Assembly (NCBI GenBank): GCA_903900705.1
Contig: CAIUOG010000117.1
Coordinates: 1 to 62,133, forward strand
DNA from: an uncultured Acidobacteriia bacterium
GTDB lineage: Bacteria; Acidobacteriota; Terriglobia; Bryobacterales; Bryobacteraceae
Direction: 5' to 3'
Length of the DNA: 62,133 bases
Position numbers and translations under genes: made by a program. The notes beneath the pieces are model-generated. The model saw nothing but the letters and a program-made list of their open reading frames with translations, had not been told where the DNA came from and made no database searches. Below are positions 22,179 to 37,505 of the stretch, piece after piece (the stretch's first letter is position 1; each line of letters starts with the position of its first letter).

Positions 22179-23174
22179 GTGACCAGACGAACGTTTCAGA
22201 CAGCCCTTGCTACTGGTGCGCTGGCCCGCGCCGCCGCTCCGCCCGACGCTGCCGCCGGGCCAAAGATGTTGTGGGGCGATGACTCGCGACTGGGGCGTCC
22301 CTTCGCCAAAGATCCTTCGGTGATCCGGTTTGGCGGTCGCTACCTGCTCTACTACTCCGTCCCGGGGGCGGGTGGCGATTCCGGCGGTATGAGCGGCTGG
22401 GGTATCGGCATTGCCGAAAGCCGCAATCTGACGGATTGGCGGAAGGTCGGGGAACTGGCCTCCGATCGGCCCTATGAGGGCAAAGGCGTGGCCGCGCCTT
22501 GCGCCCGGGTGATTGCCAGCGAGGTTCACCTCTTTTACCAGACCTACGGAAATATGGCGCACGACGCCATCTGTCATGCGGTGTCCAAAGACGGCCTCCG
22601 GTTTGTAAAGGACGCGGAAAACCCCGTGTTCCATCCGGTCGGCGCATGGTCGGCGGGTCGGGCCATTGACGCGGAAGTCGTTCCTTTTCAGGGGAAATGG
22701 TTCCTGTATGCGGCGACGCGCGATCCTCAGATGAAGGTCCAGATGATTACGGGCGCCGTAGCGGAAAGCGGGAAGGGCTTCGGGCGGGACGCCTGGAAGA
22801 TGACCTCGGACGGGCCGTTGCTCAAGCCCGAACTGCCCTGGGAGAAGGATTGCATCGAGGCGCCGTCGGTGGTGCAGCGTGGGGACTCGCTGGTGATGTT
22901 CTACGCCGGCGCCTACAACAACGCGCCCCAGCAGATTGGCGTCGCGCGGAGCAAAGACGGCGTCCACTGGGAGCGGCTGAGCAAGGAACCGTTCCTGCCG
23001 GTGGGCAAGCCGGGGTCGTGGAATTCCTCGGAATCCGGCCATCCGGGCGCGTTTGTCGATGACGACGGGCAGACGTACCTCTTTTATCAGGGGAATCCCG
23101 ACAAGGGCAAGACGTGGCTGCTTTCGTATGTGCGGGTCGGCTGGCACGGCGATGTTCCGTATTTAATGGACTGA
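22179..23174 (+). CDS. Exported glycosidase-like five-bladed beta-propeller protein
   Basis: 331 aa, GTG start (the ATG two bases upstream is followed at once by a stop). The N-terminus MTRRTFQTALATGALARAAA resembles a Tat signal with a reduced motif. The mature part has repeated propeller-like segments: KDPSVIRFGGRYLLYYS, GIGIAESRNLTDWRKVG, IDAEVVPFQGKWFLYAATRD, IEAPSVVQRGDSLVMFYAG and VARSKDGVHWERL. This is the pattern of GH43/GH32/GH130-type proteins. Candidate catalytic acids are the Asp in KDPS and in AIDAE and the Glu in CIEAPS. The substrate is unknown. It precedes the ABC importer by 4 bp and may belong to that operon. Confidence 0.75.
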   Translation: MTRRTFQTALATGALARAAAPPDAAAGPKMLWGDDSRLGRPFAKDPSVIRFGGRYLLYYSVPGAGGDSGGMSGWGIGIAESRNLTDWRKVGELASDRPYEGKGVAAPCARVIASEVHLFYQTYGNMAHDAICHAVSKDGLRFVKDAENPVFHPVGAWSAGRAIDAEVVPFQGKWFLYAATRDPQMKVQMITGAVAESGKGFGRDAWKMTSDGPLLKPELPWEKDCIEAPSVVQRGDSLVMFYAGAYNNAPQQIGVARSKDGVHWERLSKEPFLPVGKPGSWNSSESGHPGAFVDDDGQTYLFYQGNPDKGKTWLLSYVRVGWHGDVPYLMD

Positions 23175-23178
23175 TTCC

Positions 23179-23802
23179 GTGGAATTGCTCAGGGTCCGCG
23201 ATCTCAGCATTCGCTATGGGGACCGGGAAGTTCTTCATTCTGTGAACCTTGCGCTCGGCGCCGAAGAGTTCGCCGGCCTTGCCGGGCCGTCCGGTTCCGG
23301 TAAATCCACGCTCGCCCTCGCAATTCTGAACGCGCTGCCCGCCGGGGCGTTACTCTCCGGTGAAGTCGCGTTTTCGGGCGTCGCCATGGCCCCGGTTTTT
23401 CAGGAGGCCACCGGGGCGCTGCACCCCCTGATGCGGGTCGGCAGACAGGTGGAAGAAGTGCTGCGGGCCCGTCGCCGGCCGGGGCGTGCGTTCGCGGAAG
23501 CGGCCCTCGAAAGCGTCGGCCTGCGTTCCAAAGAGTACTACCAGGCTTATCCGCACGAGTTGAGCGGCGGCGAAAAGCAACGCGTGCTGCTCGCCCAGGC
23601 GATCGCCGCGCAGCCGGACCTGCTCATCGCCGATGAACCCACGGCATCCCTCGATGCAGCCACCGGGCAGACCATCCTGGACCTTCTGCTCGACCTGCGC
23701 GCGCGGCGTGGCATGGCAATGCTGCTGATTTCGCATTCCCCCGAGCTTCTGGCGCGCTTCGGCGACCGAATCCTGACCATGCGGGATGGCGCCCTTGTCT
23801 GA
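23179..23802 (+). CDS. Peptide-type ABC importer, ATPase 1 (DppD/OppD-like, short)
   Basis: 207 aa, GTG start. Walker A GPSGSGKST, Q-loop APVFQEATGALHP, signature LSGGEKQRV, Walker B LLIADEPTASLD and H-loop ISHS are all present. OppD proteins normally run to about 330 aa; this one lacks the C-terminal oligopeptide-binding extension. First gene of a five-gene importer; it overlaps ATPase 2 by 17 bp. Confidence 0.9.
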   Translation: MELLRVRDLSIRYGDREVLHSVNLALGAEEFAGLAGPSGSGKSTLALAILNALPAGALLSGEVAFSGVAMAPVFQEATGALHPLMRVGRQVEEVLRARRRPGRAFAEAALESVGLRSKEYYQAYPHELSGGEKQRVLLAQAIAAQPDLLIADEPTASLDAATGQTILDLLLDLRARRGMAMLLISHSPELLARFGDRILTMRDGALV

Positions 23803-24442
23803 AGCAGAAACTCCGGACGTGATGGTCTCGGCGCGCGGGCTTTGCGTGGACTTTACCGGCAGGCGCGCGGTCCGTGCCGTGGATGCGGTCTCACTCGATA
23901 TCCCGCGCGGAGCAATCACCGGCTTGACCGGCCCATCGGGTTGTGGCAAATCGACTCTGGCGCGCTGTCTGGCAGGGTGGCAGATGCCCACAACGGGTTC
24001 GATTCTTCGAGGTGGCCCGGTGCAACTGGTGATGCAGGACCCCGGCATCAGCCTGAATCCCCGATTTTCAGCGTTTGAGGTGGTGGAGGAGCCGCTGCGG
24101 CTTGCCGGGCGCAGCGCGCCGGTTCCTGCCCTGCTGGAAAGGGTAGGCCTCGCCCCGGCGCACGGGCGCAGGAAATCTTCTGAATTCAGTGGCGGTGAAA
24201 AGGCCCGACTGGCGATAGCGCGTGCCTTCGCGGCGATGCCGGAGCCCGGGCTTCTGATCCTGGACGAATCGCTGAGCGGCCTCGACCCGGCCACCCGGGA
24301 GGCAATTCTGGGCCTGCTGCGGGATTTTGCCCGCGACGGCGCGGTCCTGCTGATCAGCCATGACCGGAAGCTGCTCGATTCCGTCTGCGCGGCGGTCCTG
24401 GTAATGGACCAGGGGCAGATTCAACGGGAGACGTCCGCATGA
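23786..24442 (+). CDS. Peptide-type ABC importer, ATPase 2 (DppF/OppF-like, short)
   Basis: 218 aa. Walker A GPSGCGKST, Q-loop QLVMQDPGISLNPRFS (the DP-x-x-SLNP pattern is typical of OppF/DppF), signature FSGGEKARL, Walker B LLILDESLSGLD and H-loop ISHD. Walker B ends in DES rather than DEP, with the catalytic Glu present. It too lacks the usual C-terminal extension. An internal start at 23822 is possible. Overlaps the permease start by 4 bp. Confidence 0.9.
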   Translation: MAPLSEAETPDVMVSARGLCVDFTGRRAVRAVDAVSLDIPRGAITGLTGPSGCGKSTLARCLAGWQMPTTGSILRGGPVQLVMQDPGISLNPRFSAFEVVEEPLRLAGRSAPVPALLERVGLAPAHGRRKSSEFSGGEKARLAIARAFAAMPEPGLLILDESLSGLDPATREAILGLLRDFARDGAVLLISHDRKLLDSVCAAVLVMDQGQIQRETSA

Positions 24443-25359
24443 GGGTCGCGTGGCTGTTGCGCCGCCTGCTGCATTCCGTGGCGCTCCTATTTGCGGTATC
24501 GGTGTTCTCCTTCCTGCTCGCCCACTTTGCGCCAGGCGGATTCTTCGACGACCTGCAACTGAACCCGCAGATCTCGCCCGAAACCGTCTGGCAACTGCGT
24601 CATCGTTATGGCCTGGACCGCCCTCTTCCCCTTCAATACGCGAAATGGGCGGCGTCGGCGGCGCGCGGGGATTTCGGCGCTTCCCTCGCCTGGCAGCAGC
24701 CTGTGGCTCCGATTCTGCTTCCCCGATTGCGCCACACTCTGCAACTGACCGGAACGGCGGCTGCGCTGGCCTGGCTCTGCGGTCTTCCCCTCGGGCTGCT
24801 GGCGGCGCGAAAGCGGCGCGGGTTGCTGAGCCGTTTGGGCGTGACCATCAGTTCGATGCTGCTGGTAACGCCCGAACTGCTCCTCATTCTGGTACTCATG
24901 CTGGCCGCGATCCGCCTCGGCTTCCCCGGTCTGCTCACCAGCTTCGCGCTCCCTCTGGGTGTGCTGGTGGCGGGCATGTTCCCGTTGGTGTTCCTGCATA
25001 CGCGGTCGGCCACGCTCGAAGTCCTCGACGCCGCGTTCATCCGTTCCGCCCGGGCGCACGGCATCCGGGGGACGCGTTTGTGGCTGGTCTACATTCTGCC
25101 GGCGGCGGGGAATCCGCTCATTTCTCTGTTCGGCCTGTCTCTGGGGGGCCTTGTCGGGGCTTCTCTGGTGGTGGAAACAGTTCTCAGCCGGCCCGGATTG
25201 GGTTCGCTTTTTCTGGACGCGATTGCGAACCGGGATCTGGATGTCGTCACAGCCGTGATGCTGCTTTCCGCCACCTGCCTGATTGGGGGAAATCTGCTGG
25301 CGGACGCGATTCTGGCCTGGAATGACCCTCGGATTGCGTCCGGAGGCTCCCGTGAATAA
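24439..25359 (+). CDS. Peptide-type ABC importer, permease 1 (DppB-like)
   Basis: 306 aa. Six predicted membrane helices, beginning WLLRRLLHSVALLFAVSVFSFLLAHFAPGG and followed by the family's HRYGLDRPLPLQYAKW. The EAA-type coupling segment is AFIRSARAHGIRGTRLWLVYILPAA, which docks to the ATPases. Its stop lies inside the start of permease 2. Confidence 0.92.
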   Translation: MRVAWLLRRLLHSVALLFAVSVFSFLLAHFAPGGFFDDLQLNPQISPETVWQLRHRYGLDRPLPLQYAKWAASAARGDFGASLAWQQPVAPILLPRLRHTLQLTGTAAALAWLCGLPLGLLAARKRRGLLSRLGVTISSMLLVTPELLLILVLMLAAIRLGFPGLLTSFALPLGVLVAGMFPLVFLHTRSATLEVLDAAFIRSARAHGIRGTRLWLVYILPAAGNPLISLFGLSLGGLVGASLVVETVLSRPGLGSLFLDAIANRDLDVVTAVMLLSATCLIGGNLLADAILAWNDPRIASGGSRE

Positions 25360-26131
25360 GCCGGTCCGCCTCCTCCTCGCTATCCTGCTGATTCTGCTGG
25401 CGATTCCCTGGAGCGACGGCGCCCGGCAGGATCGTGCGATACCCTTTCACCCGCCCGACGGCGCGCACTGGCTCGGTACGGACGGGTTCGGTCGGGACGT
25501 ACTGACCCGGCTGGTGGCCGGCACGCGCGCCTCTCTTGCCGCCGGTCTGCTGGCCACCGCCCTCGCGCTCGCCGTCGCCACCGTTCTGGGCGCTCTGGCG
25601 GGCTACTACCCGGGTTGGCGTGATGAGTTCGCCATGCGCCTGGCGGAACTCTTCCAGTCGCTGCCATGGCTATATCTGGTGCTGGGGATTCGTTCGGTCC
25701 TGCCACTGTCCCTGCCGCCTTCCCTCGCGCTCCTCGGCATTGCTCTGGTTTCCGGTCTCACTGGCTGGACCCGCCCGGCGCGATTGGTCCGCGGCGTGGT
25801 CCTGAGCGCCCGGACCCGTGATTACGTTCTGGCCGCCAGGGCGTTCGGGGCGGGTGACCTGTACCTTTTGCGCCGTCACATCCTGCCGGAAACCTTCCCG
25901 GTCCTCGCTGTGCAGGCCTCTGTCCTGCTGCCTCAGTTCATTCTGGCTGAGGTCACGCTGTCCTTTCTGGGGCTCGGAATCGGGGAACCGGCGCCCAGCC
26001 TGGGCGGGATGCTGAGTGCGCTGCGGGATCTTTCTGTCCTGAGCACTTATCCATGGATGTTGTCACCAGCAGTTGTACTGTTACTCACTTTGACTGGCTG
26101 TAACTGGCTGACAAGGCATTCGAACCGCTAA
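25352..26131 (+). CDS. Peptide-type ABC importer, permease 2 (DppC-like)
   Basis: 259 aa from GTG 25352 (8-bp overlap with permease 1). After the first helix comes the DppC signature HWLGTDGFGRDVLTRLVAGTRASL, then a coupling segment ARTRDYVLAARAFGAGDLYLLRRHILPE and a final pair of helices. The frame is open upstream to 25283, but that would overlap permease 1 by 77 bp without any membrane sense, so GTG is chosen. Confidence 0.9.
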   Translation: MNKPVRLLLAILLILLAIPWSDGARQDRAIPFHPPDGAHWLGTDGFGRDVLTRLVAGTRASLAAGLLATALALAVATVLGALAGYYPGWRDEFAMRLAELFQSLPWLYLVLGIRSVLPLSLPPSLALLGIALVSGLTGWTRPARLVRGVVLSARTRDYVLAARAFGAGDLYLLRRHILPETFPVLAVQASVLLPQFILAEVTLSFLGLGIGEPAPSLGGMLSALRDLSVLSTYPWMLSPAVVLLLTLTGCNWLTRHSNR

Positions 26132-26135
26132 ACTG

Positions 26136-27809
26136 ATGCCTGTGGGTGTTCCCTGGCACCAGCTACTACTCGTGTGTTTGTCGCCATCCCTGCTGCCCGC
26201 CGCTACCCCCTGGGAACCCGGCCGGTTTGGCGGGCAGATCACGATTGCGGAACGCGGTGAGCCAAAAACCCTGAATCCGGTGCTGGCTCTCGATGCCCCG
26301 TCCCGCGATGTCATCCGCCGCATGATGGGCGATCTGATTTCCATCAACCGCGCGACCCAGCAGACGGAACCGGGTCTCGCCGAGTCCTGGCGGGTTTCGA
26401 AGGATCATCTCCATTACACGCTCACCCTGCGCGAAGGCGTGAAGTTTTCCGATGGGCACCCGTTTACGGCCGACGACGTCGTGTTCTCCTTCGCCGTCTA
26501 TCTGGACGAAAAGCTCGGCTCGCCCCAGCGCGATCTGCTGATGCCCGGCGATAAGCCAATTCAGGTGGTGAAGCTGGATGCCCGGCATCTGCGTTTCGAT
26601 CTGGCGATGCCCTATGCCGCCGCCGAACGGCTTTTTGACAGCGTGGCCATGCTGCCAAAGCACTTATTGGAGACACCGTGGCGCGAAGGCCGATTTGCGC
26701 AGATGTGGAATGCGGGCACCCCTCCGGCGCAGCTTGCCGGCCTCGGCCCGTTCCGCCTGAAGGAATACAAACCGGGCGAGAGTATCGTGCTCGAACGGAA
26801 CCCGTTTTACTGGAAGAAGGACGCGGCGGGAAAGCAGTTGCCCTATCTCGATTCGCTCCGGTTTCTCTTTGTGGCCAACGAAGATGCCCAGGTGCTGCGG
26901 TTCGGGGCCGGAGAAACGCAGTTGCTGAATCGCTTCGCCGCACGGTCGGCGGTCCTGCTTCCCGCGGATCTGCTGACCGACCTCGGGCCCGGCCTCGAAT
27001 ACAGCTTTCTGTTCTTCAATCTGGGGGAGACGGGCAGGCCCTGGTTCCGTGACGCGGCGTTTCGGCAGGCGGTCTCCGCTGCCATCGACCGCGATGCGAT
27101 GGTCCGCCTGGTGTTTTCCGGACGCGCGGCAGCGCTGGCGACCCACGTTCCGCCCGGCAATGCCCACTGGATGAACACGGCGGTTCCGCGTCCGAAACGT
27201 TCGCTCGAACAGGCTCGCGCCCTGCTGCAAAAGGCCGGCTTCCACTGGGCTGCCGATCAGTCGTTGCTGGATAACACGGGCCACCGGGTGGAATTCTCGC
27301 TCGTCACCAGCGCAGCCAACGAAGAGCGGCTCAAAATGGCGACGATCCTTCAGGAAGACCTGCGGCAACTGGGGATGGACGTTCACGTCGCACCGCTCGA
27401 AGCCCGCAGTCTGATCGACCGGGTCACACGGACCAGGCAGTTCGATGCCTGTATCATGGCTCTCGGCGGGGGCGACGCGGACCCGAACTCGGAGATGAAC
27501 GTGTGGATGTCTGATGCGGCCATGCACCTCTGGAATCCGTCGCAAAAAAAACCGGCAACGCCGTGGGAGGCGGAACTGGATGATCTGATGCGGCGTCAGA
27601 TGGTTACATCCGTGCCCACTGTGAGAAAGCAACTTTTTGATCGCGTTCAGCAGATTGAAGCGCAGCAGCTGCCGCTCATCAGTCTGGTGAGCCCTCACAT
27701 TCTGGTGGCGGCGTCGAAGCAGGTGGGCAACTTCCGTCCGGCGGTGCTCGACCATTACACGCTCTGGAATGCGGAGTATCTTTATCTCAGGGACTCCGGC
27801 AGAAAGTGA
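26136..27809 (+). CDS. Peptide/nickel ABC importer, substrate-binding protein (SBP family 5)
   Basis: 557 aa. Signal peptide (MPVGVPWHQLLLVCLSPSLLPAAT), no lipobox Cys in the right place. Family-5 signature motifs: PKTLNPVLALDAPSRDV, ESWRVSKDHLHYTLTLREGVKFSDGHPFTADDVVFSF and FRLKEYKPGESIVLERNPFYW. Family members bind oligopeptides, dipeptides, nickel-chelates or some sugars. With the following protease genes, peptides are the most likely cargo. The stop overlaps the ECF sigma factor start (GTGA), joining the importer and the CHAT/subtilase genes. Confidence 0.92.
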   Translation: MPVGVPWHQLLLVCLSPSLLPAATPWEPGRFGGQITIAERGEPKTLNPVLALDAPSRDVIRRMMGDLISINRATQQTEPGLAESWRVSKDHLHYTLTLREGVKFSDGHPFTADDVVFSFAVYLDEKLGSPQRDLLMPGDKPIQVVKLDARHLRFDLAMPYAAAERLFDSVAMLPKHLLETPWREGRFAQMWNAGTPPAQLAGLGPFRLKEYKPGESIVLERNPFYWKKDAAGKQLPYLDSLRFLFVANEDAQVLRFGAGETQLLNRFAARSAVLLPADLLTDLGPGLEYSFLFFNLGETGRPWFRDAAFRQAVSAAIDRDAMVRLVFSGRAAALATHVPPGNAHWMNTAVPRPKRSLEQARALLQKAGFHWAADQSLLDNTGHRVEFSLVTSAANEERLKMATILQEDLRQLGMDVHVAPLEARSLIDRVTRTRQFDACIMALGGGDADPNSEMNVWMSDAAMHLWNPSQKKPATPWEAELDDLMRRQMVTSVPTVRKQLFDRVQQIEAQQLPLISLVSPHILVAASKQVGNFRPAVLDHYTLWNAEYLYLRDSGRK

Positions 27810-28357
27810 ACTCTCCTTCTGATGAAGCGCTGGTCGAGGCCTGCCTGGCCGGCGATCAGACCGCCTGGTCGGCGCTGATTGCGCGCTACAAGAACCTGGT
27901 GTATTCGGTTCCCGCGCGTTACCGGATGACGCCCGATGATGCGGCGGACGTCTTTCAGCAGGTCTGGCTGGCCCTGTTTTCCGAACTGCCGAATCTTCGC
28001 CAGACCGGAGCCCTGCGTTCCTGGCTGCTGACGGTGGCCGCGCATAAGTGCTTCCATCTGCGCCGGAGGCAGTTGCTGCGGGAAGGGAAGGAAGAGTCGT
28101 TCGCGTTCGAAATGCCGGCGGAGGCGCTGCCGAGCGATTGGCAGCGGCATTCCGAAAAGGAACAGGTCTTTCGCGAGGCGATCGCGCGGTTGCCGGAGCG
28201 CTGCCAGAAACTGGTCCGCATGCTGTTTTATGAGGACCCGCCAATGCCTTATGCGGAGGCGGCGCGGCGGCTTGGCCTCGCGGAAGGTTCCATCGGGTTC
28301 ATTCGCGGGCGGTGTCTGAACAAGCTGCGGGCGCAGCTGGAAAAGATGGGGTTCTAG
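27806..28357 (+). CDS. ECF-type RNA polymerase sigma factor
   Basis: 183 aa, GTG start overlapping the SBP stop by 4 bp. Region 2 (ALIARYKNLVYSVPARYRMTPDDAADVFQQVWLALFSEL) and region 4 (FREAIARLPERCQKLVRMLFYEDPPMPYAEAARRLGLAEGSIGFIRGRCLNKLRAQL) are both complete. Ends 3 bp before the CHAT gene. It probably directs RNA polymerase to this or a related gene set; the downstream zinc-finger-like protein could be its regulator. Confidence 0.9.
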   Translation: MNSPSDEALVEACLAGDQTAWSALIARYKNLVYSVPARYRMTPDDAADVFQQVWLALFSELPNLRQTGALRSWLLTVAAHKCFHLRRRQLLREGKEESFAFEMPAEALPSDWQRHSEKEQVFREAIARLPERCQKLVRMLFYEDPPMPYAEAARRLGLAEGSIGFIRGRCLNKLRAQLEKMGF

Positions 28358-28360
28358 CGA

Positions 28361-31183
28361 ATGTCTGACTGGATTCGCGAACTCCTGGCATCGACCGTCA
28401 GCCCGGTGGATCTCGCTGTCTGGGCGGATGCGCATCCGGAACTGCAGGGGCGTCACCACATCGAGGAACTGCACCGGGACGTGCTGTCGATTATCCATGT
28501 CGACCGTCCGGCGGCGCTGCGGCTGGGGGAGGCGGCGCTCGCTCTGGCGAAGGTGTCCGGTAATCCGGAATCGCTTGCGCTGGCATGGAGGATCTCCGGT
28601 AACGCGCTGTATGCGAATGACGATTACGCGCGCGCGGTGGAAAGCTACACGAGCGCGTTGTACCTGTTTGAAGCGCTGGGCAACGAGCGCGAAGCGGGCC
28701 GGACGCTGAGCAGTGCGCTGCAGTCTCTGGGTTATCTGGGGCAGTACGAACAGGCGCTCGAATGGGCCTCGCGCGCCCGCCGCATCTTCGAAAAGCTTTC
28801 TGACGACCTCCGTCTGGCTCGCCTGAACAGTAACACCGGGAACCTGCTCTATCGGCAGGATCGGCACGGCGAGGCCGTTGAACTCTACGAACGCGCGCTC
28901 ACCGCCTTCCGGCGCGTGGGCGCGCCTTCCGACGTTGCCGCCGTGCTGAGCAATATCGCCGTCTGCCGCACCAGCCTGGGGGATTTCACCGCGGCGCTGG
29001 CCGCGCATGAGGCCGCGCGAAAACACTGCGAGGAGCATGGGCTCACCTTGCTGGTGGCGGAGGCCGACTACAACATCGCCTGGCTCTACTACCTGCGTGG
29101 CGACTATGTGCGCGCCATGGACCTCTACGCGCTCACGAGGAAGCACTGCCTGGTGGCCTCTGACCAGTACCGGCTGGCGCTTTGCGACCTCGACGAAGCT
29201 GAGATGTATCTCGAACTCAACCTGGTGGCCGAGGGCCGGGAACTGGCGCGCCTCGCCGCGGAGCAGTTCGGGCGGTTGGGCATGGCCTACGAACAGGCGA
29301 AAGCGCTGGTGAGCCAGGCGCTGGCGGAAGCGCACCTGGTGGGCGCGGCGGCGTCGGCATCCCTGTTCCGCCGTTCGCGGGGACTGTTCCTGGAGCAGGG
29401 GAATCAGATCTGGCCGGCTCTGATCGACCTCTACGAATCGATGCTGGCGCGCCGTCGCGGCAATTCCCGCACAGCGCTGCGGCTTTGCCGCCGGGCCGGA
29501 CGCGTTCTCGCCGGTTCGCCGCTGCCGGGCAAGAGCGCGCTTTGCGAACTGCTGGAATCCCAGTTGCTGCTGGACCGCGGGGAACTGGTGCGGAGCCGCG
29601 AACTTTCGCTTGCCGCGCTGGGGCGTCTGCAACTCTCCGAAACGCGGGCGCAACGCGTGGAAGCCTACTCGCTGCTGGCCCGGATTGAAGAGGAAGCGGG
29701 CCGCGAACATGCGGCCTTCGAGTTCTGGCAGCGGGCCCGGCTGGAGATCGAGGCTCTCCGGAGCCGCCTTTGGGGGGAGAGCGTTCGGATTTCCTTTCTC
29801 AAAGACAAGCTGGCCGTCTACGAGGCGCTGGCCTGGCTGTATCTGCGGCGCGGCGACTTTGAAAATGCGTTCCATGTGATTGAGCAGGCGAAGTCGCGCA
29901 GTATGGCGGAGATGCTGACTGCGCCGGAACTGTTGCCGGCCGATCCGGAAACCAGCGCTTTGCTGGGGGATCTGAACGCTGATTACCGGCAGCTGGAAAT
30001 GCTGGGCCTGGCGGCTGAGGGTGTTCCGGAATCCCGCGCCGCGGAAACAAGGGCCAGGGAACTTCGCGAGCGCGTTCGGCGAAGAGAAGAAGAGATTGGC
30101 CGCCGCGTGACGGGCTCACGATCAGGAGCCGCCGCCGGCAGCGAGATGCCGGAGCCTGTCGGCGGGGCCAACTCGGTCGATCTTCGGCGCGGCATCCCGC
30201 CGGGAACCCTGCTGATCGAGTACATGGAGATCCGCGGCCTGCTGCATGCGTGTCTCATTGATCGGGAGGGAATGGAAATCCTGCCGGTCACGGAGTCGGC
30301 CGGGATCCGTCCCATTCTGCGCTATCTGCAATTGCAGGTTGCCCGGATGCGGGCGGGAGGACCCACGGCGGCGATCTTTGCTCCGGCGAGCGGAAAGGCG
30401 GCGCTGCAGCATCTGTTTGAACTGCATGAGGCGCTGATCGGGCCCATCCGGCAGGTGATTGCGCGGTACACCAGTCTGGTGGTGATGCCCTGCGGGATTC
30501 TGCATGAGGTGCCCTTCCACGCGCTTTTTGACGGGGAGCGGCATCTGATCGACACCCACGCGGTTTCCAGTGCGCCCAGTGCGCGGGTCTTTTCGCTGTG
30601 TATGTCGAGGCCGGCCTCGACATACAAGGAAAGTCTGGTGATGGGGGTGCCGGACGGCAAGGCGCCGGCCATTGAGGCGGAGGCACGGGCGGTCGCGGAC
30701 GCACTGGGTTCACCGTTGTTCCTGGGGGAGGCGGCGACGGTTGCCGTCCTGCGGGAGCGCGGTCCGCGCAGCCGGTTCGTGCATGTGGCGACGCATGGGA
30801 TCTTTCGGCGGGATAACCCTTTGTTTTCAGCGATCCGCCTGGGGGATTCCCGGCTGAATGTGCCGGATCTTTACCGGCTGTCGCTGCAGGCGGATCTGGT
30901 GACGCTTTCCGGTTGCAGTACCGGGCTGAACGCGGTGATCGGCGGGGATGAGCTGATGGGACTGATCCGCGGCGTGCTGTATTCGGGGGCGAGGTCTGTG
31001 CTGGCGAGCCTTTGGGACGTCCATGACCAGAGCACCACGGACTTTATGCGGAGCTTCTACACTGCGGCGGCTGCGGGAGTGGCGTTTCCCGAAGCCGTCC
31101 GAAGCGCGACAATCGCGGTACGCGGCGCATGGCCGCACCCCTATCACTGGGCGCCGTTCCTGCTGGTGGGGGCATCACATTGA
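28361..31183 (+). CDS. TPR-repeat CHAT-domain caspase-like protease
   Basis: 940 aa. Residues about 60-480 form tetratricopeptide repeats (for example AWRISGNALYANDDYARAVESYTSALYLFEALG and LNSNTGNLLYRQDRHGEAVELYERAL). A coiled region follows, and then the CHAT domain (about 610-940). The caspase-type dyad is H812 (HVATHGIF) and C852 (LSGCSTGL), with the trailing GDELMGLIRGVLYSGARSVLASLWDV and PYHWAPFLLVG. CHAT proteases are relatives of separase and caspases and act after a sensor partner detects a signal. The TPR part is the likely sensor or scaffold. No signal peptide; cytoplasmic. It lies 3 bp after the sigma factor. A 28-bp perfect palindrome lies within it. Confidence 0.93.
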   Translation: MSDWIRELLASTVSPVDLAVWADAHPELQGRHHIEELHRDVLSIIHVDRPAALRLGEAALALAKVSGNPESLALAWRISGNALYANDDYARAVESYTSALYLFEALGNEREAGRTLSSALQSLGYLGQYEQALEWASRARRIFEKLSDDLRLARLNSNTGNLLYRQDRHGEAVELYERALTAFRRVGAPSDVAAVLSNIAVCRTSLGDFTAALAAHEAARKHCEEHGLTLLVAEADYNIAWLYYLRGDYVRAMDLYALTRKHCLVASDQYRLALCDLDEAEMYLELNLVAEGRELARLAAEQFGRLGMAYEQAKALVSQALAEAHLVGAAASASLFRRSRGLFLEQGNQIWPALIDLYESMLARRRGNSRTALRLCRRAGRVLAGSPLPGKSALCELLESQLLLDRGELVRSRELSLAALGRLQLSETRAQRVEAYSLLARIEEEAGREHAAFEFWQRARLEIEALRSRLWGESVRISFLKDKLAVYEALAWLYLRRGDFENAFHVIEQAKSRSMAEMLTAPELLPADPETSALLGDLNADYRQLEMLGLAAEGVPESRAAETRARELRERVRRREEEIGRRVTGSRSGAAAGSEMPEPVGGANSVDLRRGIPPGTLLIEYMEIRGLLHACLIDREGMEILPVTESAGIRPILRYLQLQVARMRAGGPTAAIFAPASGKAALQHLFELHEALIGPIRQVIARYTSLVVMPCGILHEVPFHALFDGERHLIDTHAVSSAPSARVFSLCMSRPASTYKESLVMGVPDGKAPAIEAEARAVADALGSPLFLGEAATVAVLRERGPRSRFVHVATHGIFRRDNPLFSAIRLGDSRLNVPDLYRLSLQADLVTLSGCSTGLNAVIGGDELMGLIRGVLYSGARSVLASLWDVHDQSTTDFMRSFYTAAAAGVAFPEAVRSATIAVRGAWPHPYHWAPFLLVGASH
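30599..30626. repeat. 28-bp perfect palindrome inside the CHAT coding sequence
   Basis: Fourteen bases on each side of the centre (between 30612 and 30613) are perfectly complementary; the core is TCGAGGCCGGCCTCGA. No spacer, so the RNA could form a tight hairpin and the DNA a cruciform. It encodes SMSRPASTY-like residues (CMSRPASTY) at the start of the CHAT domain. Confidence 0.9.
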
Positions 31184-31256
31184 AAATATTTTCAGAAAAC
31201 TATATTTCCTGTCGCGGCCCGGTACCCTTACTGATTGAGTTGGTGTGGAAACCGGT

Positions 31257-31904
31257 ATGAGCCATTATGATCTAACCGTCTGGACCGATTACGCCCGCGG
31301 CCTTGTTTCCGCCGAGGCGTCGGCACAAATGTCCCGCCACCTTGGGCAATGTACTTTGTGTGCCTATGTGGCCAATCTGCTGCAGCGTGCCTCGGAGACG
31401 GGCGCGGCTGATCGGGATTTCGAACCGCCGGTCGCCGTTGTTGCGGCCGCTGAAGGTATTTTTCCCGGCGCGGTCTCTCAGTCCGCTCCCGCCAAAAGCG
31501 GGCGTATCTGGGCGGGTTTGCGTCAACTGGCAGGCGAACTCCGCCAGGACAGCCTGGAGGGGGCTGTTCCGCAAGGTGTTCGTTCGCTGCGCCCGGATTC
31601 CCGGCACATGACGTATCAGGCCGGTCACTACTCCGTGGATCTCTGGTTCGACAGCGATCCGGCAAACAGCGCGATGACTGTTACCGGCCAGATTGCCGAC
31701 GAGACCGCTCCGGACGTTCCCATGCGGGACACAAAAGCACTTCTTCTGGCCGGCAATCAGTTGCTGGCCAGTACAACTACCACGGAATTCGGCGAGTTTT
31801 CGCTGCGTTACAAACCGGGGCCGACAGTCAGGCTCTTTATGCCGGTGGAACGCAGCGGTGAGTATGTGGAGGTTTCCCTGAACCTCCCCGGAGGAGAAGT
31901 CTGA
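31257..31904 (+). CDS. Putative zinc-finger regulator with C-terminal beta domain (215 aa)
   Basis: The N-terminal segment YDLTVWTDYARGL...MSRHLGQCTLCAYVANLL carries the HxxxCxxC core of zinc-finger anti-sigma factors. There is no transmembrane helix. The middle is a linker; the C-terminal 100 residues look like a beta-sandwich (SAMTVTGQIADE, GEFSLRYKPGPTVRLFMPV). Position between the CHAT gene and the subtilase, four genes in one ECF unit, suggests it modulates the upstream sigma factor. A GTG 12 bp upstream (31245) is an alternative start. About 70 bp of AT-rich DNA precedes it and could hold an internal promoter. Confidence 0.7.
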   Translation: MSHYDLTVWTDYARGLVSAEASAQMSRHLGQCTLCAYVANLLQRASETGAADRDFEPPVAVVAAAEGIFPGAVSQSAPAKSGRIWAGLRQLAGELRQDSLEGAVPQGVRSLRPDSRHMTYQAGHYSVDLWFDSDPANSAMTVTGQIADETAPDVPMRDTKALLLAGNQLLASTTTTEFGEFSLRYKPGPTVRLFMPVERSGEYVEVSLNLPGGEV

Positions 31905-33277
31905 TGTTGTTTTCACCCCTGGCCGGAAGGCGACCGGGTTTCAGCGCACTATTGGCGCTGGCACTCGTCTCCTTCTGTGCAGTCCCCTCAAAAGCGGCCA
32001 CGTCCGGACCCCCGACGTGGATTCTGGTCACCCAACCGGGTGATCTCAATGGTGTTTTGTCGCGCCATCACCTCGCCCTGCAGCAGGTCATGCGGACCGG
32101 GATCTACCAGGTCACGTCCCTGCCTGGCAGCACCACCACGAGTTTCGTTAAAGAAGTCACGACCGACTCGAAAGTCTCCGGGTTCGAGGCGGATTCCGAA
32201 GTTCACACGCCGGAAGTAACGCCCACGGTGGCGCCGAAGCCGTCCCTGTCGCAGCTCAACGCGGCTCTGGCCGATCATTCGGTGGTCTCGTACTATGGCG
32301 CAAGGGTTCGCGGCGCTTACGTCAATCAGGCGGCGGCCATGACGGTGGAAATCCCCTCGGCGCTGAGCCGCTTCGGAGCGGGGAATACGACGGTGGCGGT
32401 AATCGATACGGGCGTCGACCCCAATCATCCGGCGCTCAGGGGATCACTGGTGACCGGGTATGACTTTATCCGGAATGTGGTGGGTTACGCCTCGGAAATG
32501 ACGGACCTGAACCAGTCGACCGTGGCGATTCTGGATCAATCGACGGTGGCGATTCTGGATGGCAAGAACTTCCCCGTGCTGCTGAATCAATCGACGGTGG
32601 CGATTCTCGACCAGTCGACGGTCGCGATTCTCGATGCCACGAAGCTGCCGGGGGATTTTGGCCACGGCACCATGGTGGCTGGTCTGATTCATCTGGCTGC
32701 CCCCGGCGTGAAGATCATGCCTCTCAAAGCTTTCAATTCCGATGGTTCGTCCAACCTTTCCGACATTATTCGCGCCATTTACTACGCGGTGGACCATCAG
32801 GCGAAAGTGATCAACATGAGCTTCAGCACCACCTCCCCCTCCGCACAGTTGCAGGCGGCGATCACGTATGCGAAGCAGCATAATGTGTTCTGCATCGCCT
32901 CCGCGGGAAATGACGGCAAAAGGGAACTGGTTTATCCGGCTGGCTACAGCGGGGCGATTGGTGTGGGCAGCGTGAATCCGTCCGATCTGCGGAGCGTTTT
33001 CAGTAACTTTGATGTGGCGAGCGCGCGGACTTCGGCGCCTGGCGAGGCGTTGGTGACCACATATCCCGGCGGGAATTACGCCGGCGTCTGGGGCTCGTCG
33101 TTCAGCTCCGCGCTGGTCTCCGGCACTGTGGCGCTGATGGCCCAGCTGAATCCGCGCATCTCGGGCTCAACCGCGATGGATGCGCTCGATCACGGGAAGC
33201 ACATCAATCAGGGCATGGGGGATGCGCGCCTCGATGTGCTGCTGTCCCTGTTGTACTCGATTACCAACCACGACTAG
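31904..33277 (+). CDS. Secreted subtilisin-like serine protease (S8) with QSTVAILD repeats
   Basis: 457 aa. A signal peptide (cleavage near PSKAAT) and a propeptide-like region of about 110 residues precede the S8 domain. The catalytic triad is D168 (VIDTGVDPNHP), H254 (GHGTMVAG) and S399 (WGSSFSSALVSG, where the usual GTSMAAP has changed around the Ser). Between Asp and His is an insertion made of four QSTVAILD octapeptides in two pairs (residues 204-244). The start codon overlaps the preceding stop. Probably exported and self-processed; could supply peptides to the importer upstream. Confidence 0.9.
   Translation: MLFSPLAGRRPGFSALLALALVSFCAVPSKAATSGPPTWILVTQPGDLNGVLSRHHLALQQVMRTGIYQVTSLPGSTTTSFVKEVTTDSKVSGFEADSEVHTPEVTPTVAPKPSLSQLNAALADHSVVSYYGARVRGAYVNQAAAMTVEIPSALSRFGAGNTTVAVIDTGVDPNHPALRGSLVTGYDFIRNVVGYASEMTDLNQSTVAILDQSTVAILDGKNFPVLLNQSTVAILDQSTVAILDATKLPGDFGHGTMVAGLIHLAAPGVKIMPLKAFNSDGSSNLSDIIRAIYYAVDHQAKVINMSFSTTSPSAQLQAAITYAKQHNVFCIASAGNDGKRELVYPAGYSGAIGVGSVNPSDLRSVFSNFDVASARTSAPGEALVTTYPGGNYAGVWGSSFSSALVSGTVALMAQLNPRISGSTAMDALDHGKHINQGMGDARLDVLLSLLYSITNHD
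32513..32635 (+). repeat. Four 24-bp repeats encoding QSTVAILD in the subtilase
   Basis: Two tandem pairs of a 24-bp unit (cagtcgacggtggcgattct plus a GAT codon) are separated by a linker encoding GKNFPVLLN. The amino-acid units are identical, while synonymous bases differ (tcgacc/tcgacg, ctg/ctc). Protein-level identity is thus kept despite DNA drift, which points to selection on the peptide. Confidence 0.9.
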
Positions 33278-33303: not shown

Positions 33304-33564
33304 TCATTTCCCGAGTGTCTTCTGCCACGCTGACAGCAATTCCCGCCTGGCCGCGTCCGAAAGCGGGCGCGGCATGGTTTCCGGCTCATACTGGCGACAG
33401 AGCGCGACGCTCTTCTTCAGGCTCTCCACAAATTCCACGCAGGGCGCGCAGCCTTCAATGTGCCGGCGCATCTGTTCGCAGGCCTGCGGAGGCAGTTCGA
33501 CGTCCAGGTATTCGGAAAGCACGGCGAAGACTTCCCGGCAGTGGGCAGTGTCCTGTGGACTCAT
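33304..33564 (-). CDS. Zinc-finger anti-sigma factor (86 aa)
   Basis: Contains CREVFAVLSEYLDVELPPQACEQMRRHIEGCAPCVEFVESL, the classic zf-HC2 anti-sigma domain with HxxxCxxC (HIEGCAPC) and a preceding Cys. No membrane segment, so a soluble ZAS-type regulator. The ATG overlaps the stop of the ECF sigma gene upstream (ATGA), the usual arrangement for sigma/anti-sigma pairs. It is likely to bind that sigma factor and release it on a redox or other stress. Confidence 0.9.
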   Translation of the reverse strand: MSPQDTAHCREVFAVLSEYLDVELPPQACEQMRRHIEGCAPCVEFVESLKKSVALCRQYEPETMPRPLSDAARRELLSAWQKTLGK

Positions 33565-34181
33565 ATTTGGCTCCTGTGCAGCCGAAGGTAGGTATCCAGA
33601 GTTTTGCGCAGCGCGAGGCGGCCGCGGTGCAGCCGGGTCTTGACCACGTCTGAGGTCAGGCCAAGGATTTCCGCTGTGGCGTCCGTCGAAAGGTCTTCCA
33701 CATCCCGCAGCAGCACCACGGCGCGATAGGTATCGGGCAATTGCTGAATGGCTCTGGTCAGTTCGTCTTTCAGTTCGCCCTGCAGGAAGTTTTGATCGGG
33801 CAGGGCGGACCAGTCCGCGATCTCCAGTTTGCGGGTTTCGCCTTCGTGGCGGAAGGCGGGCAGGAATTCGTCGAGCGAGAGTTCCGTTTCGGGTGCGAAG
33901 CGGCTCTTCCGCCGCTTCATGAGGCATTCGTTGCGGGCAATCCGGAAAATCCAGGGACGAACCTGTTCCGGCGTTTCCAGCTGATCGAACTTCTGAAAGG
34001 CCTTCAGCATGGTCTCCTGGGAGACTTCCTCCGCGTCTTCCCGCTGGCCGCACATCAGCCAGGTGTAGCGGAAAATTTTAGCCCGGAAGTGATCCACGAA
34101 GGGCTCGAAAACGGAGGCATCCCCTGCCAGAAGCGCGCGTGCCATGGCAATTTCCTGTTCCTTATCCGCCGTGGAAGTCAA
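33561..34181 (-). CDS. ECF-type RNA polymerase sigma factor (second)
   Basis: 206 aa. Region 2 is FVDHFRAKIFRYTWLMCGQREDAEEVSQETMLKAFQKFDQ, and region 4 is LTRAIQQLPDTYRAVVLLRDVEDLSTDATAEILGLTSDVVKTRLHRGRLALRKTL. Between them is an acidic linker of about 40 residues. Cotranscribed with the anti-sigma gene downstream. Divergently placed relative to the Cas6-like gene with the OsmC gene in between. Confidence 0.92.
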   Translation of the reverse strand: MTSTADKEQEIAMARALLAGDASVFEPFVDHFRAKIFRYTWLMCGQREDAEEVSQETMLKAFQKFDQLETPEQVRPWIFRIARNECLMKRRKSRFAPETELSLDEFLPAFRHEGETRKLEIADWSALPDQNFLQGELKDELTRAIQQLPDTYRAVVLLRDVEDLSTDATAEILGLTSDVVKTRLHRGRLALRKTLDTYLRLHRSQI

Positions 34182-35640: not shown

Positions 35641-36774
35641 ATGCAACCGGCGCCGCTCCAGTGGCTGCTCTCCATTTATCAGATTCGCCGTCAACCGCCG
35701 CCGCTGCGGGATCTGCCGTTACTGCTGCTGAAGTGCGCGGTGGGCGGGCTCATCATCGGGCCGCTGCTTTCCCTGTTCTTCGTGGTTCTGAACGCCGGCA
35801 ATCCGCTGCAGATCTTCCTGAAACCGGTGATCCTGCTCTGGAGCATGGCTTCCGGCGTGATCTGGTCCATGAGTTTCTTCGTCTGTTGCGGCCTGGGCAC
35901 GGCGTGGGTGCGGTCGCTGGTGTGCGGCTATCCGCCGTCCATTATCGGCACGGTGCTGGTGGTGTACAACACCATCGCCAGTTCCTTTGCGGGCGTCACG
36001 GCCCTGCTGCTGACGGCCTGGCTGGGGGCCCGGCTGGGTGGCGATACGGTGCACGTGCGCGTTCCCTATCTTTGGCAGGTGCTGGTGGTGGATGGCCTGA
36101 TCGGCGGTGTGCTGGCGCTGGTGATCACCGCATTTGTGAAGCTGAAACTGGAAGTGGAGCGGGCGCAGGCGGAACTGGCGGCGAAGGCGATTGAAACGGC
36201 CCGCGCGCAGTCATTGGCGCTGCAGTCGCAGATCAATCCGCACTTCTTCTTCAATACTCTGAACTCGATTTCCGCGCTGGTGGATGAGGATCCGGCAAGC
36301 GCGAAGAGCATGATCGGGAGGCTGGCGGATATGTTCCGGTATACGCTGGGTTGCACGCATACCGAATCGGTGCAGTTGGAGCAGGAGCTACAGTTTGTGC
36401 GGGATTATCTCTCGATTGAGCAGGCGCGGTTCCGGCAGCGCCTGCGGGTGGAACTGCCGGTGCCGCCGCTGCCCAACGTGCGGCTTCCGGGCCTGGTTTT
36501 GCAGCCGCTGGTGGAGAATGCCGTGAAGCACGGGATCGCGCGGCGCATTGAAGGGGGCACGATTTCCATTCAGGTAGCCCGGCGGGGGGAGTCAACGCGC
36601 GTTTCGGTGCGCAATACGGCGGACGATTCGGCACGGCCCGGCGAAGCGGCGCTTTACCGGCAGGGCCACGCGCTCGAAAATGTGCGGGCGCGGCTGCGGC
36701 TCTTCACGGGGCGTCAGGATCCGCTGCACATGGAATGGCACGAGGACTGGACGGAGTTCAGTTTCGAAATATGA
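35641..36774 (+). CDS. LytS/YehU-type membrane histidine kinase
   Basis: 377 aa. Five or six membrane helices (about 27-180) are followed by a coiled linker and the His_kinase domain with phospho-acceptor His in LQSQINPHFFFNTLNSISALV. The ATPase N-box is VLQPLVENAVKHGI. The kinase stop overlaps the start of a LytTR response regulator, its partner. The signal is unknown; LytS relatives sense cell-wall or extracellular nutrient changes. Confidence 0.92.
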   Translation: MQPAPLQWLLSIYQIRRQPPPLRDLPLLLLKCAVGGLIIGPLLSLFFVVLNAGNPLQIFLKPVILLWSMASGVIWSMSFFVCCGLGTAWVRSLVCGYPPSIIGTVLVVYNTIASSFAGVTALLLTAWLGARLGGDTVHVRVPYLWQVLVVDGLIGGVLALVITAFVKLKLEVERAQAELAAKAIETARAQSLALQSQINPHFFFNTLNSISALVDEDPASAKSMIGRLADMFRYTLGCTHTESVQLEQELQFVRDYLSIEQARFRQRLRVELPVPPLPNVRLPGLVLQPLVENAVKHGIARRIEGGTISIQVARRGESTRVSVRNTADDSARPGEAALYRQGHALENVRARLRLFTGRQDPLHMEWHEDWTEFSFEI

Positions 36775-37505
36775 TCCGCACTCTGCTGGTGGATGATGAG
36801 GAACTGGCGCGCTCCACGCTGCGCCGCGCGTTTGCCGCGTTTCCCGACTTCGAAATCGTGGGGGAGGCCGCGAATGGTCCGGAAGCGCTGGAGATGATTC
36901 CGTCGCTCCGGCCGGATGTGGTCCTGCTCGATATTGAGATGCCGGGGTTGAATGGCTTCGAGGTCGTGCAGCAACTGGGTCCGGAGACGCCGGCAATCAT
37001 CTTTGCGACCGCGTATGACGAGTATGCCGTGCGGGCGTTTGAGGCGAATGCGATCGATTACCTGCTGAAGCCGGTGCAGCCGGAGCGGCTGGAGCGCGCG
37101 TTGCGCCGGGTCGCCCGGAAGCAGGAGAATTCGCCGAAGCTGGCCGAGGTGGTGCTGCGCCAGGGTGGCCCGGTCCGCCGGCTGGCCGCGCGGCGGGGCA
37201 AGCGGATCGTGATTGTGCCGCTGAAGGATGTGGTGCGGGTGGAGATTGAGGAAAAACTGGTCTTCGCCTGTACGCTAACCTCAGAACGCCTGCTGGTGGA
37301 GAAGAGCATCGGGGAGTTGGAGACGCTGCTGCAGCCCGCCGGGTTCCTGCGTATCAGTCGCGGGGAACTGGTGAATCTGGACATGGTCCGGGAACTGATC
37401 CCCTGGTTTTCCGGCACATGGCGGGTGAAACTCACGACCGGCGAAGAGCGGGATGTCAGCCGGGAGCGGGCGCGGCAGTTGAAAGAAGCGATGGGGATCG
37501 AATAA
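36771..37505 (+). CDS. LytTR-family response regulator
   Basis: 244 aa, ATG overlapping the kinase stop (ATGA). Receiver domain IRTLLVDDEELARSTLRRAF, phospho-acceptor Asp in VVLLDIEMPGLNGFE and Lys in YLLKPVQPERL. The C-terminal LytTR DNA-binding domain (about 140-244) contains GKRIVIVPLKDVVRVEIEEKLVFA and FLRISRGELVNLDMV. LytTR proteins bind paired direct repeats; no such site was searched for here. Confidence 0.93.
   Translation: MIRTLLVDDEELARSTLRRAFAAFPDFEIVGEAANGPEALEMIPSLRPDVVLLDIEMPGLNGFEVVQQLGPETPAIIFATAYDEYAVRAFEANAIDYLLKPVQPERLERALRRVARKQENSPKLAEVVLRQGGPVRRLAARRGKRIVIVPLKDVVRVEIEEKLVFACTLTSERLLVEKSIGELETLLQPAGFLRISRGELVNLDMVRELIPWFSGTWRVKLTTGEERDVSRERARQLKEAMGIE

Follow-up and report, generated by a model that had tools for sequence, protein, structure and literature searches.

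A repeated octapeptide in a secreted subtilase co-varies with a neighboring TPR-CHAT protein and suggests a peptide-signaling unit in Acidobacteriota

What joins a peptide importer, an extracytoplasmic function (ECF) sigma factor, a TPR-CHAT protease, a protein with an HxxxCxxC motif, and a secreted subtilase (family S8) in one run of nine genes? The run occupies positions 23,179 to 33,277 of contig CAIUOG010000117.1 (assembly GCA_903900705.1) from an uncultured Acidobacteriia bacterium of the Bryobacteraceae; the whole 62,133-nucleotide stretch analyzed is herein called the window. A first-pass annotation had proposed a cascade in which the exported subtilase makes peptides that are imported and control the sigma or CHAT module. 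We find that the subtilase itself contains copies of an octapeptide that changes from system to system in step with residues in the TPR region of the CHAT protein, which suggests a self-contained peptide-signaling unit.

The subtilase gene (31904..33277, plus strand; Peptidase_S8, E 7.2e-38) encodes a hydrophobic N terminus, a pro-domain, and the catalytic residues D168, H254, and S399, on a pro-subtilisin fold (3whi_B, E 2e-23). Among relatives the triad is conserved (D in 58/58, H in 58/58, S in 57/58 with one gap), as is the hydrophobic N terminus (57/58). Between Asp168 and His254 lie four copies of QSTVAILD (32513..32536, 32537..32560, 32588..32611, and 32612..32635, plus strand), written in differing codons, which the first-pass annotation had not noticed. 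A degenerate DNA pattern for QSTVAILD has four matches in the 6.1-Mb genome, all within the S8 gene, and the same pattern backwards has none. The AlphaFold2 (AF2) model has a mean predicted local distance difference test (pLDDT) score of 86.9; the loop that bears the repeats is probably flexible, since residues 214 through 234 and 236 through 242 score below 50, and the first copy (residues 204 through 211) is modeled at higher confidence. That the repeats are copies of the catalytic-Asp strand (NTTVAVID in the window) was considered and rejected, because that strand stays VAVIDTG-like while the unit varies.

Exact internal octapeptide repeats are present in 153 of 196 non-redundant S8 proteins (hidden Markov model score >200 bits), as 70 distinct strings, the units being identical within one protein and different between systems. 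The same repeat rule finds none in 131 CHAT, 69 peptide-binding protein (SBP), 152 HxxxCxxC zinc-finger (ZF), 111 ECF, and 57 permease (PERM1) sequences. The unit sits in the Asp-His insert only (108 S8), in both this insert and the linker between pro-domain and catalytic domain (30), or in the linker only (9); five are unplaced, and one S8 has a different repeat placed elsewhere. Copy number reaches 15 exact copies of QSTGAILD in one protein (locus L190, S8 at 10075–11973), and single-copy units also occur (e.g., L098, L103, L111, and L115). The commonest residues over 69 strings are, by position, Q (58), S (49), T (43), A/V/T, A (38), I/F/V, L (50), and D (51); with E (8) and N (7) at the last position, 66 of 69 strings end in D, E, or N. 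Between copies in the same gene, synonymous sites differ far more than nonsynonymous ones (pS 0.665, pN 0.014; 446 copy pairs from 133 genes), pN being biased low because paired copies were allowed at most two mismatches. The pS value disfavors recent duplication as the origin of the repeats. Where the genes are ordered ECF-ZF-CHAT-S8, the unit is in the linker (e.g., QRSVAFVD and QTSQAFID) or absent. Two unusual repeats were also seen: LNPTSVTG toward the C terminus of an orphan S8 (L303, 788–4381), and the seven-residue QFIFTAD in a CHAT-linked S8 from a Chthonomonadaceae metagenome-assembled genome (MAG) outside Acidobacteriota (L145, 2410–3759).

The distribution of units within genomes was examined with 127 S8 proteins from 69 genomes, 40 of which have at least two. 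At most four S8 candidates per genome were scored in the class-wide search, and most of the genomes are drafts, as judged from contig counts. Tandem subtilases at one CHAT locus have a unit in common in 7 of 7 cases. Orphan subtilases, those with no CHAT gene within 6.5 kb upstream in the stretch examined (some stretches end at contig edges), lie mostly on other contigs; 26 of 30 carry the unit of the genome's CHAT-linked S8 (18 genomes; 28 of 34 pairs), compared with a mean of 4.07 and a maximum of 14 in 5000 genome swaps. The misses include one that is a single residue off (genome G594) and one that matches a CHAT-linked S8 lacking an exact repeat (G766). Excluding genomes with the common unit QSTAAVLD leaves 7 matches in 10 versus 0.12 under the null (maximum 3). 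Two CHAT loci in one genome never share a unit (0 of 13 pairs, 11 genomes), and pairs from different loci with a backbone identity of 0.45 to 0.60 have one in common in 50 of 639 cases. This pattern (7/7, 26/30, 0/13) indicates that the unit is matched to a factor outside the subtilase and that this factor pairs one-to-one with the CHAT system. Eight other CHAT-domain matches in the window's own genome were covered by six stretches (L069 through L074), which show only weak similarity to the CHAT protein of the window and no related subtilase. As a separate observation, orphan S8 genes with an octapeptide (L268, L274, L288, L289, L266, and L271) are often preceded by a gene whose product shares its C-terminal beta domain with the HxxxCxxC protein and has a different, response-regulator-like N terminus; Response_reg matches the L268 gene at E 1.8e-4, below its cut-off, and does not match that of L289.

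Co-variation points to the TPR region of the CHAT protein (28361..31183, plus strand; CHAT, E 5.6e-58) as the partner. Counts are for 78 of 79 systems, DQFIFTAD of L145 (a 7-mer repeat) having been excluded beforehand. Four CHAT columns are concerned: Y84 (28610..28612) co-varies with peptide position 8, S157 (28829..28831) with position 6, A194 (28940..28942) with position 4, and the column of R271 (29171..29173) with position 2, to which the window itself is an exception; S197 (28949–28951) relates to position 4 by category only (all plus strand). Residue 157 was picked before the held-out rows were inspected and 194 came from a scan of 44 systems, while 84 and 271 were picked from all 78. 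In the 44-system scan of 1755 variable columns (CHAT, SBP, ECF, ZF, and S8), the best column for peptide distance was CHAT 197 (r 0.51, next 0.41); it adjoins N198, invariant in alignment A4, just as the equivalent residue of an earlier repeat, 157, adjoins N158. Over 13,928 column-position pairs from the five proteins in these 44 systems, normalized mutual information (MI) is highest for CHAT 157 with position 6, followed by 271 with position 2; SBP 475 with position 1 comes fourth.

The pairings have a steric logic at residue 157, where F6 goes with G in 7 of 15 systems, I6 with S, T, or A in 27 of 32, L6 with V in 5 of 6, and V6 with I or L in 24 of 24; side-chain volumes are anticorrelated (rho −0.79, first of 6072 when ranked by negative volume correlation). 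At residue 271, S2 systems have H (58 of 59) and E2 systems have R (3 of 3); at residue 84, D8 systems mostly have Y, H, F, or W (65 of 68) and E8 systems A, S, L, or V (6 of 7). Among 39 phylogenetically independent pairs, 194 with position 4 shares the top rank of 6080 (p 8.5e-6), with opposite volume changes in 10 of 11, and 271 with position 2 has p 2e-4. When each unit is represented by one system (n = 42), permutations reach values as low in 0, 0, and 6 of 5000 for 157 with 6, 84 with 8, and 194 with 4, and in 34 held-out systems these pairs rank 13, 17, and 49 of 6216 by volume, while 271 with 2 is first by MI. As we read the TPR register, successive repeats carry the four sites on their helices A, at intervals of one helix face, and that face would be the concave, ligand-binding one of a TPR. 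Because sites 84, 157, 194, and 271 correspond to positions 8, 6, 4, and 2, an extended peptide would lie antiparallel in the groove. Several comparative lines thus give good support to peptide reading by the TPR region. We consider it quite likely that the TPR region reads the octapeptide, and claim no more than this because the held-out ranks are not blind for 84 and 271, both picked from all 78 systems, and because the top result among independent pairs is a tie.

The importer comprises two ATP-binding cassette (ABC) ATPases (Opp/Dpp/Nik type, 23179..23802, ABC_tran E 2.7e-21, in the same place in relatives; and 23786..24442, E 1.2e-21), two permeases (24439..25359, BPD_transp_1 E 1.3e-28; and 25352..26131, E 2.7e-20, with a likely GTG start at 25352, by inspection, in a frame opening at 25283), and an SBP of family 5 (26136..27809, SBP_bac_5 E 1.1e-82), all on the plus strand. 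The best solved relative of the SBP is the oligopeptide-binding protein AppA (1xoc, E 4.4e-36), a Bacillus subtilis protein reportedly solved with a nonapeptide; the operon partners of AppA differ. An SBP gene lies near 53 of 69 unit-bearing CHAT systems versus 5 of 19 without a unit (p 8e-5; 15 systems with too little upstream sequence excluded), and among those five, L046 is truncated and near-copies occur in L305. The first-pass annotation had held that a sigma-CHAT-S8 set never linked to peptide transporters in relatives would confine the unit to its last four genes; these counts give the importer link instead. Four genomes (G121, G092, G665, and G766) have two CHAT systems with different units and one SBP (at least 50% identity). 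With the reservation that these assemblies are incomplete and that a diverged SBP may have escaped the search, this makes it unlikely that the importer alone distinguishes the two peptides.

The remaining genes suggest an output. The CHAT domain scores above its Pfam cut-off, and the dyad named in the first-pass annotation, H812 (30794–30796, plus strand) and C852 (30914–30916, plus strand), holds in aligned relatives (H 41/42, C 42/42). The AF2 model of the CHAT protein resembles separase and Csx29 (8eey_B, E 3e-16), and RapJ is a weak sequence match to its TPR region (E 0.0084). Upstream lies the ECF sigma factor gene (27806..28357, plus strand; Sigma70_r2 E 9.8e-11, Sigma70_r4, and TIGR02937 above cut-off) and downstream the gene for the HxxxCxxC protein (31245..31904, plus strand; start possibly ATG 31257), whose motif, already noted in the first pass, is intact in 20 of 20 relatives. 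A Pfam search with this protein gave no match at E ≤ 0.01; its profile (A2) matches the anti-sigma structures 3hug_B, presumably RslA (E 2.2e-4, profile 3–57), and RsiW (5wuq, E 0.0056), and the C-terminal part weakly matches a beta domain (4v4c_B, E 0.0012). It thus has HxxxCxxC in an N-terminal zinc anti-sigma (ZAS) domain, as expected of that class, and none of 20 relatives has a 19-residue segment above 1.6 on the Kyte-Doolittle (KD) scale. A defense role, which the first-pass annotation had allowed, finds no clear support: the PADLOC matches are BovA for the CHAT protein (E 7e-4) and, for the S8, IetS (E 2.7e-6) and a general model of subtilases (E 6.6e-16).

We put the probability that the whole is a self-contained peptide-signaling unit at about two in three. 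The exported subtilase would be both protease and precursor of a linear octapeptide (QSTVAILD here), held in several copies in an exposed loop. The octapeptide would be freed by proteolysis outside the cytoplasm and, as linkage and homology suggest, brought back by the SBP5/ABC importer; we regard this release and import as probable. Co-variation suggests that the TPR superhelix would then bind it in extended form, with its C-terminal end at the N-terminal repeats, and binding would alter CHAT protease activity. By analogy with Csx29 and Csx30, CHAT may cut or displace the HxxxCxxC anti-sigma-like protein, and the freed ECF sigma may transcribe its targets, possibly including its own operon and further subtilases with the same peptide. 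This logic is the economical reading of the output, and we favor an output through CHAT, anti-sigma, and ECF by a little over even odds. The peptide cascade of the first-pass annotation is thus favored by the embedded unit and TPR co-variation, while the steps of release, import, CHAT activation, and anti-sigma cleavage we infer.

Several observations weigh against this reading. The top 35 of 1755 columns are only weakly enriched, and in the SBP (12 versus 8.1 expected) as well as the TPR region (13 versus 9.0). Among independent pairs, 194 with 4 is tied with 230 with 4, whose volume changes are not complementary, and 157 with 6 (p 0.06, rank 1353 of 6080) and 84 with 8 (p 0.03, rank 861 of 6080) fall well back. 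The held-out ranks by MI are 191, 348, and 376 of 6216 for 157 with 6, 194 with 4, and 84 with 8; other columns rank higher by volume there, and 197 with 4 has no volume correlation. The window is the sole exception among S2 systems, having R271 instead of H. Partial Mantel tests (L264 and L265 excluded) put the SBP (r 0.30, p 0.004) and ZF (0.19, p 0.006) above the TPR region (0.10, p 0.11), and over 22 independent pairs the SBP has p 0.08 and the TPR a negative value; these two tests do not single out one peptide-reading protein. No SBP occurs in the stretch examined for 16 of 69 unit-bearing systems (just beyond it in L264, L265, and L336), and of 11 genomes chosen because a system in them lacked a linked importer, 10 have an SBP match at E ≤ 1e-60 and one has none at that threshold; the SBP of G121 and G126 is part of a second system, and that of G561, G555, and G604 sits immediately past the stretch examined. 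A 19-residue segment above KD 1.6 occurs in 10 of 42 CHAT proteins, the window CHAT having no hydrophobic N terminus. No exact repeat is found in 43 of 196 S8, some of which have one copy or near-copies and several of which, outgroups, have none. Codon identity between copies is 0.50 versus 0.37 for independent codons, so the copies are not fully saturated. Finally, Asp, as found at the unit junction, is an unusual P1 residue for a subtilisin.

The rival that survives best is a secretion monitor or chaperone, in which the TPR region binds the octapeptide within subtilase precursor that is still in the cytoplasm and reports or destroys such unexported subtilase, the importer having a separate function. 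Such a device would account for the co-variation, the single unit per CHAT, the flexible-loop site, and the 16 systems without an SBP in the stretch examined. It leaves unexplained both the association of unit with importer and the exact head-to-tail octamers (up to the 15 in L190), and we think it unlikely. We give still less credence to the octapeptide as a cleavage or recognition site at which CHAT (LD|Q, caspase-like) or the subtilase cuts the loop and so activates or inactivates the subtilase. The D, E, or N ending of nearly all units would suit this, as would the clan CD kinship of CHAT and the position of the linker, the usual region of subtilase autoprocessing; however, neither catalytic-domain divergence (partial Mantel r −0.17) nor S8 backbone divergence (−0.03) tracks the peptide, the best co-varying columns are in the TPR region, and the S8 proteins have a hydrophobic N terminus that the window CHAT lacks. 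Very improbable is a plain nutrient operon for peptide uptake that adjoins a stress sigma module and has neutral repeats: an Opp-type importer and a secreted protease are a common nutrient pairing, but the low pN at high pS and the sharing of one unit throughout a genome need selection on the peptide. Least credible is a structural or amyloid-like homotypic module of subtilases, which the beta-prone and internally identical repeats (by inspection) would fit and against which speak the mostly low-pLDDT loop, the two unrelated sites on the fold, the single-copy units, and the co-variation with another protein.

The proposed signaling unit has relatives among known systems. In RRNPPA systems a linear oligopeptide leaves the cell within a precursor, is taken up again, and binds a TPR receptor in the cytoplasm (PMC9765709), and there are precursors with multiple pheromone copies (PMC11343458). 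The likeness to those of Bacillota (Rap-Phr, PlcR-PapR, and NprR among others) would be a linear peptide borne by a precursor, its re-import, and its reading by a TPR protein. The proposed precursor here is a subtilase with a catalytic triad, unlike the small RRNPPA propeptide, and the proposed receptor is TPR-CHAT with an ECF output, in Acidobacteriota, whereas RRNPPA receptors are helix-turn-helix (HTH)-TPR or Rap proteins. Pfam finds TPR, CHAT, and relatives on the CHAT protein and no HTH, and no separate small propeptide gene was found, the coding pattern of the unit occurring in the window's own genome only inside the S8 gene.

In type III-E CRISPR, Csx29 cuts Csx30, the inhibitor of an ECF-like CASP-sigma (PMC10028731). 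Craspase (Cas7-11, Csx29, Csx30, CASP-sigma) resembles our locus in that a TPR-CHAT protein with a Csx29-like model adjoins an ECF sigma and a putative sigma-binding protein; the input proposed here is a peptide rather than RNA, and the anti-sigma candidate is of the HxxxCxxC type. The CHAT protein falls outside the Csx29 family (NF041237, 27.6 bits versus a cut-off of 300), and Pfam finds no Cas7-11 or other cas gene among the nine genes, the rest of the window and the genome not having been searched for Cas7-11. According to a review, the conserved neighbors of ECF54 sigmas include carboxypeptidase, subtilase, and CHAT-domain proteins, and the control proposed is proteolytic (PMC8999054); the core ECF/CHAT/subtilase neighborhood is therefore already in print. 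The likeness to ECF54 is in this neighborhood (subtilase, CHAT), and the available text of that review proposes control without an anti-sigma and does not mention an embedded peptide, an importer, or receptor co-variation. A further paper covers ECF-sigma and caspase conflict systems (PMC8195603), with no match for subtilase in its available text. Among the open-access literature matches listed, we recognized none that describes a subtilase with a built-in peptide or a peptide receptor of the TPR-CHAT type.

On balance we lean toward a widespread Gram-negative class in which a pheromone resides in a secreted protease, each caspase-like TPR-CHAT receptor groove has a private octapeptide "pherotype," co-resident systems are orthogonal, and extra subtilases broadcast the same peptide. 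If true, bacteria would have a form of self-sensing circuit not described before, one that resembles RRNPP systems in its solution, has an output unrelated to theirs, and is to a peptide trigger what Craspase is to an RNA trigger. TPR-CHAT proteases, of which Csx29, switched by an RNA-guided complex, is the well-studied case, would gain a natural input signal, and a protease/anti-sigma/ECF circuit possibly a setting outside CRISPR. A peptide language of Acidobacteriota would then be readable from genomes, with the subtilase unit as the word and TPR residues such as 84, 157, 194, and 271 as the reader.

The layout of the locus is as first annotated, with two ABC ATPases, two BPD permeases, SBP, ECF, TPR-CHAT, HxxxCxxC, and S8 genes in one direction. 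By coordinates the junctions are, in gene order, overlaps of 17, 4, and ~8 bp, a gap of 4, an overlap of 4 (the SBP stop over the ECF start, also as described), a gap of 3, a gap of 61 to 73 between the CHAT and HxxxCxxC genes, depending on the start codon chosen, and an overlap of 1. The complete order is kept in 24 of 131 distinct CHAT open reading frames (ORFs), the window included, a few of these rows being pieces of one gene and many stretches ending at contig edges; the run is therefore more than chance. The importer is divergent in variants L067, L118, and L193, and downstream of the subtilase in L077. The HxxxCxxC protein has matches in 25 of 150 genomes of the order, its own among them, and the S8 family (alignment A1) in 95 of 399 genomes of the class at E ≤ 1e-70. 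Locus L086 sits in a Steroidobacteraceae MAG, which may reflect transfer or mis-binning. Inspection of upstream regions for a conserved ECF promoter yielded no motif that we would claim, and scans gave one sigma-70 promoter-like site versus 1.6 in shuffles and eight terminator-like sites versus 11. Four base pairs upstream of the run is a GH43 gene (22179–23174, same strand), which has no match above 20 bits in 35 stretches (L040 through L074). On the other side, a second ECF sigma gene (33561–34181, minus strand; Pfam sigma regions) runs toward the 3′ end of the unit, and after it comes an HxxxCxxC-bearing ORF seen by inspection (minus strand, 33304–34181 region), and further downstream (35641–37505) lie a histidine-kinase-like gene and a LytTR-type response-regulator gene, named from their translations.

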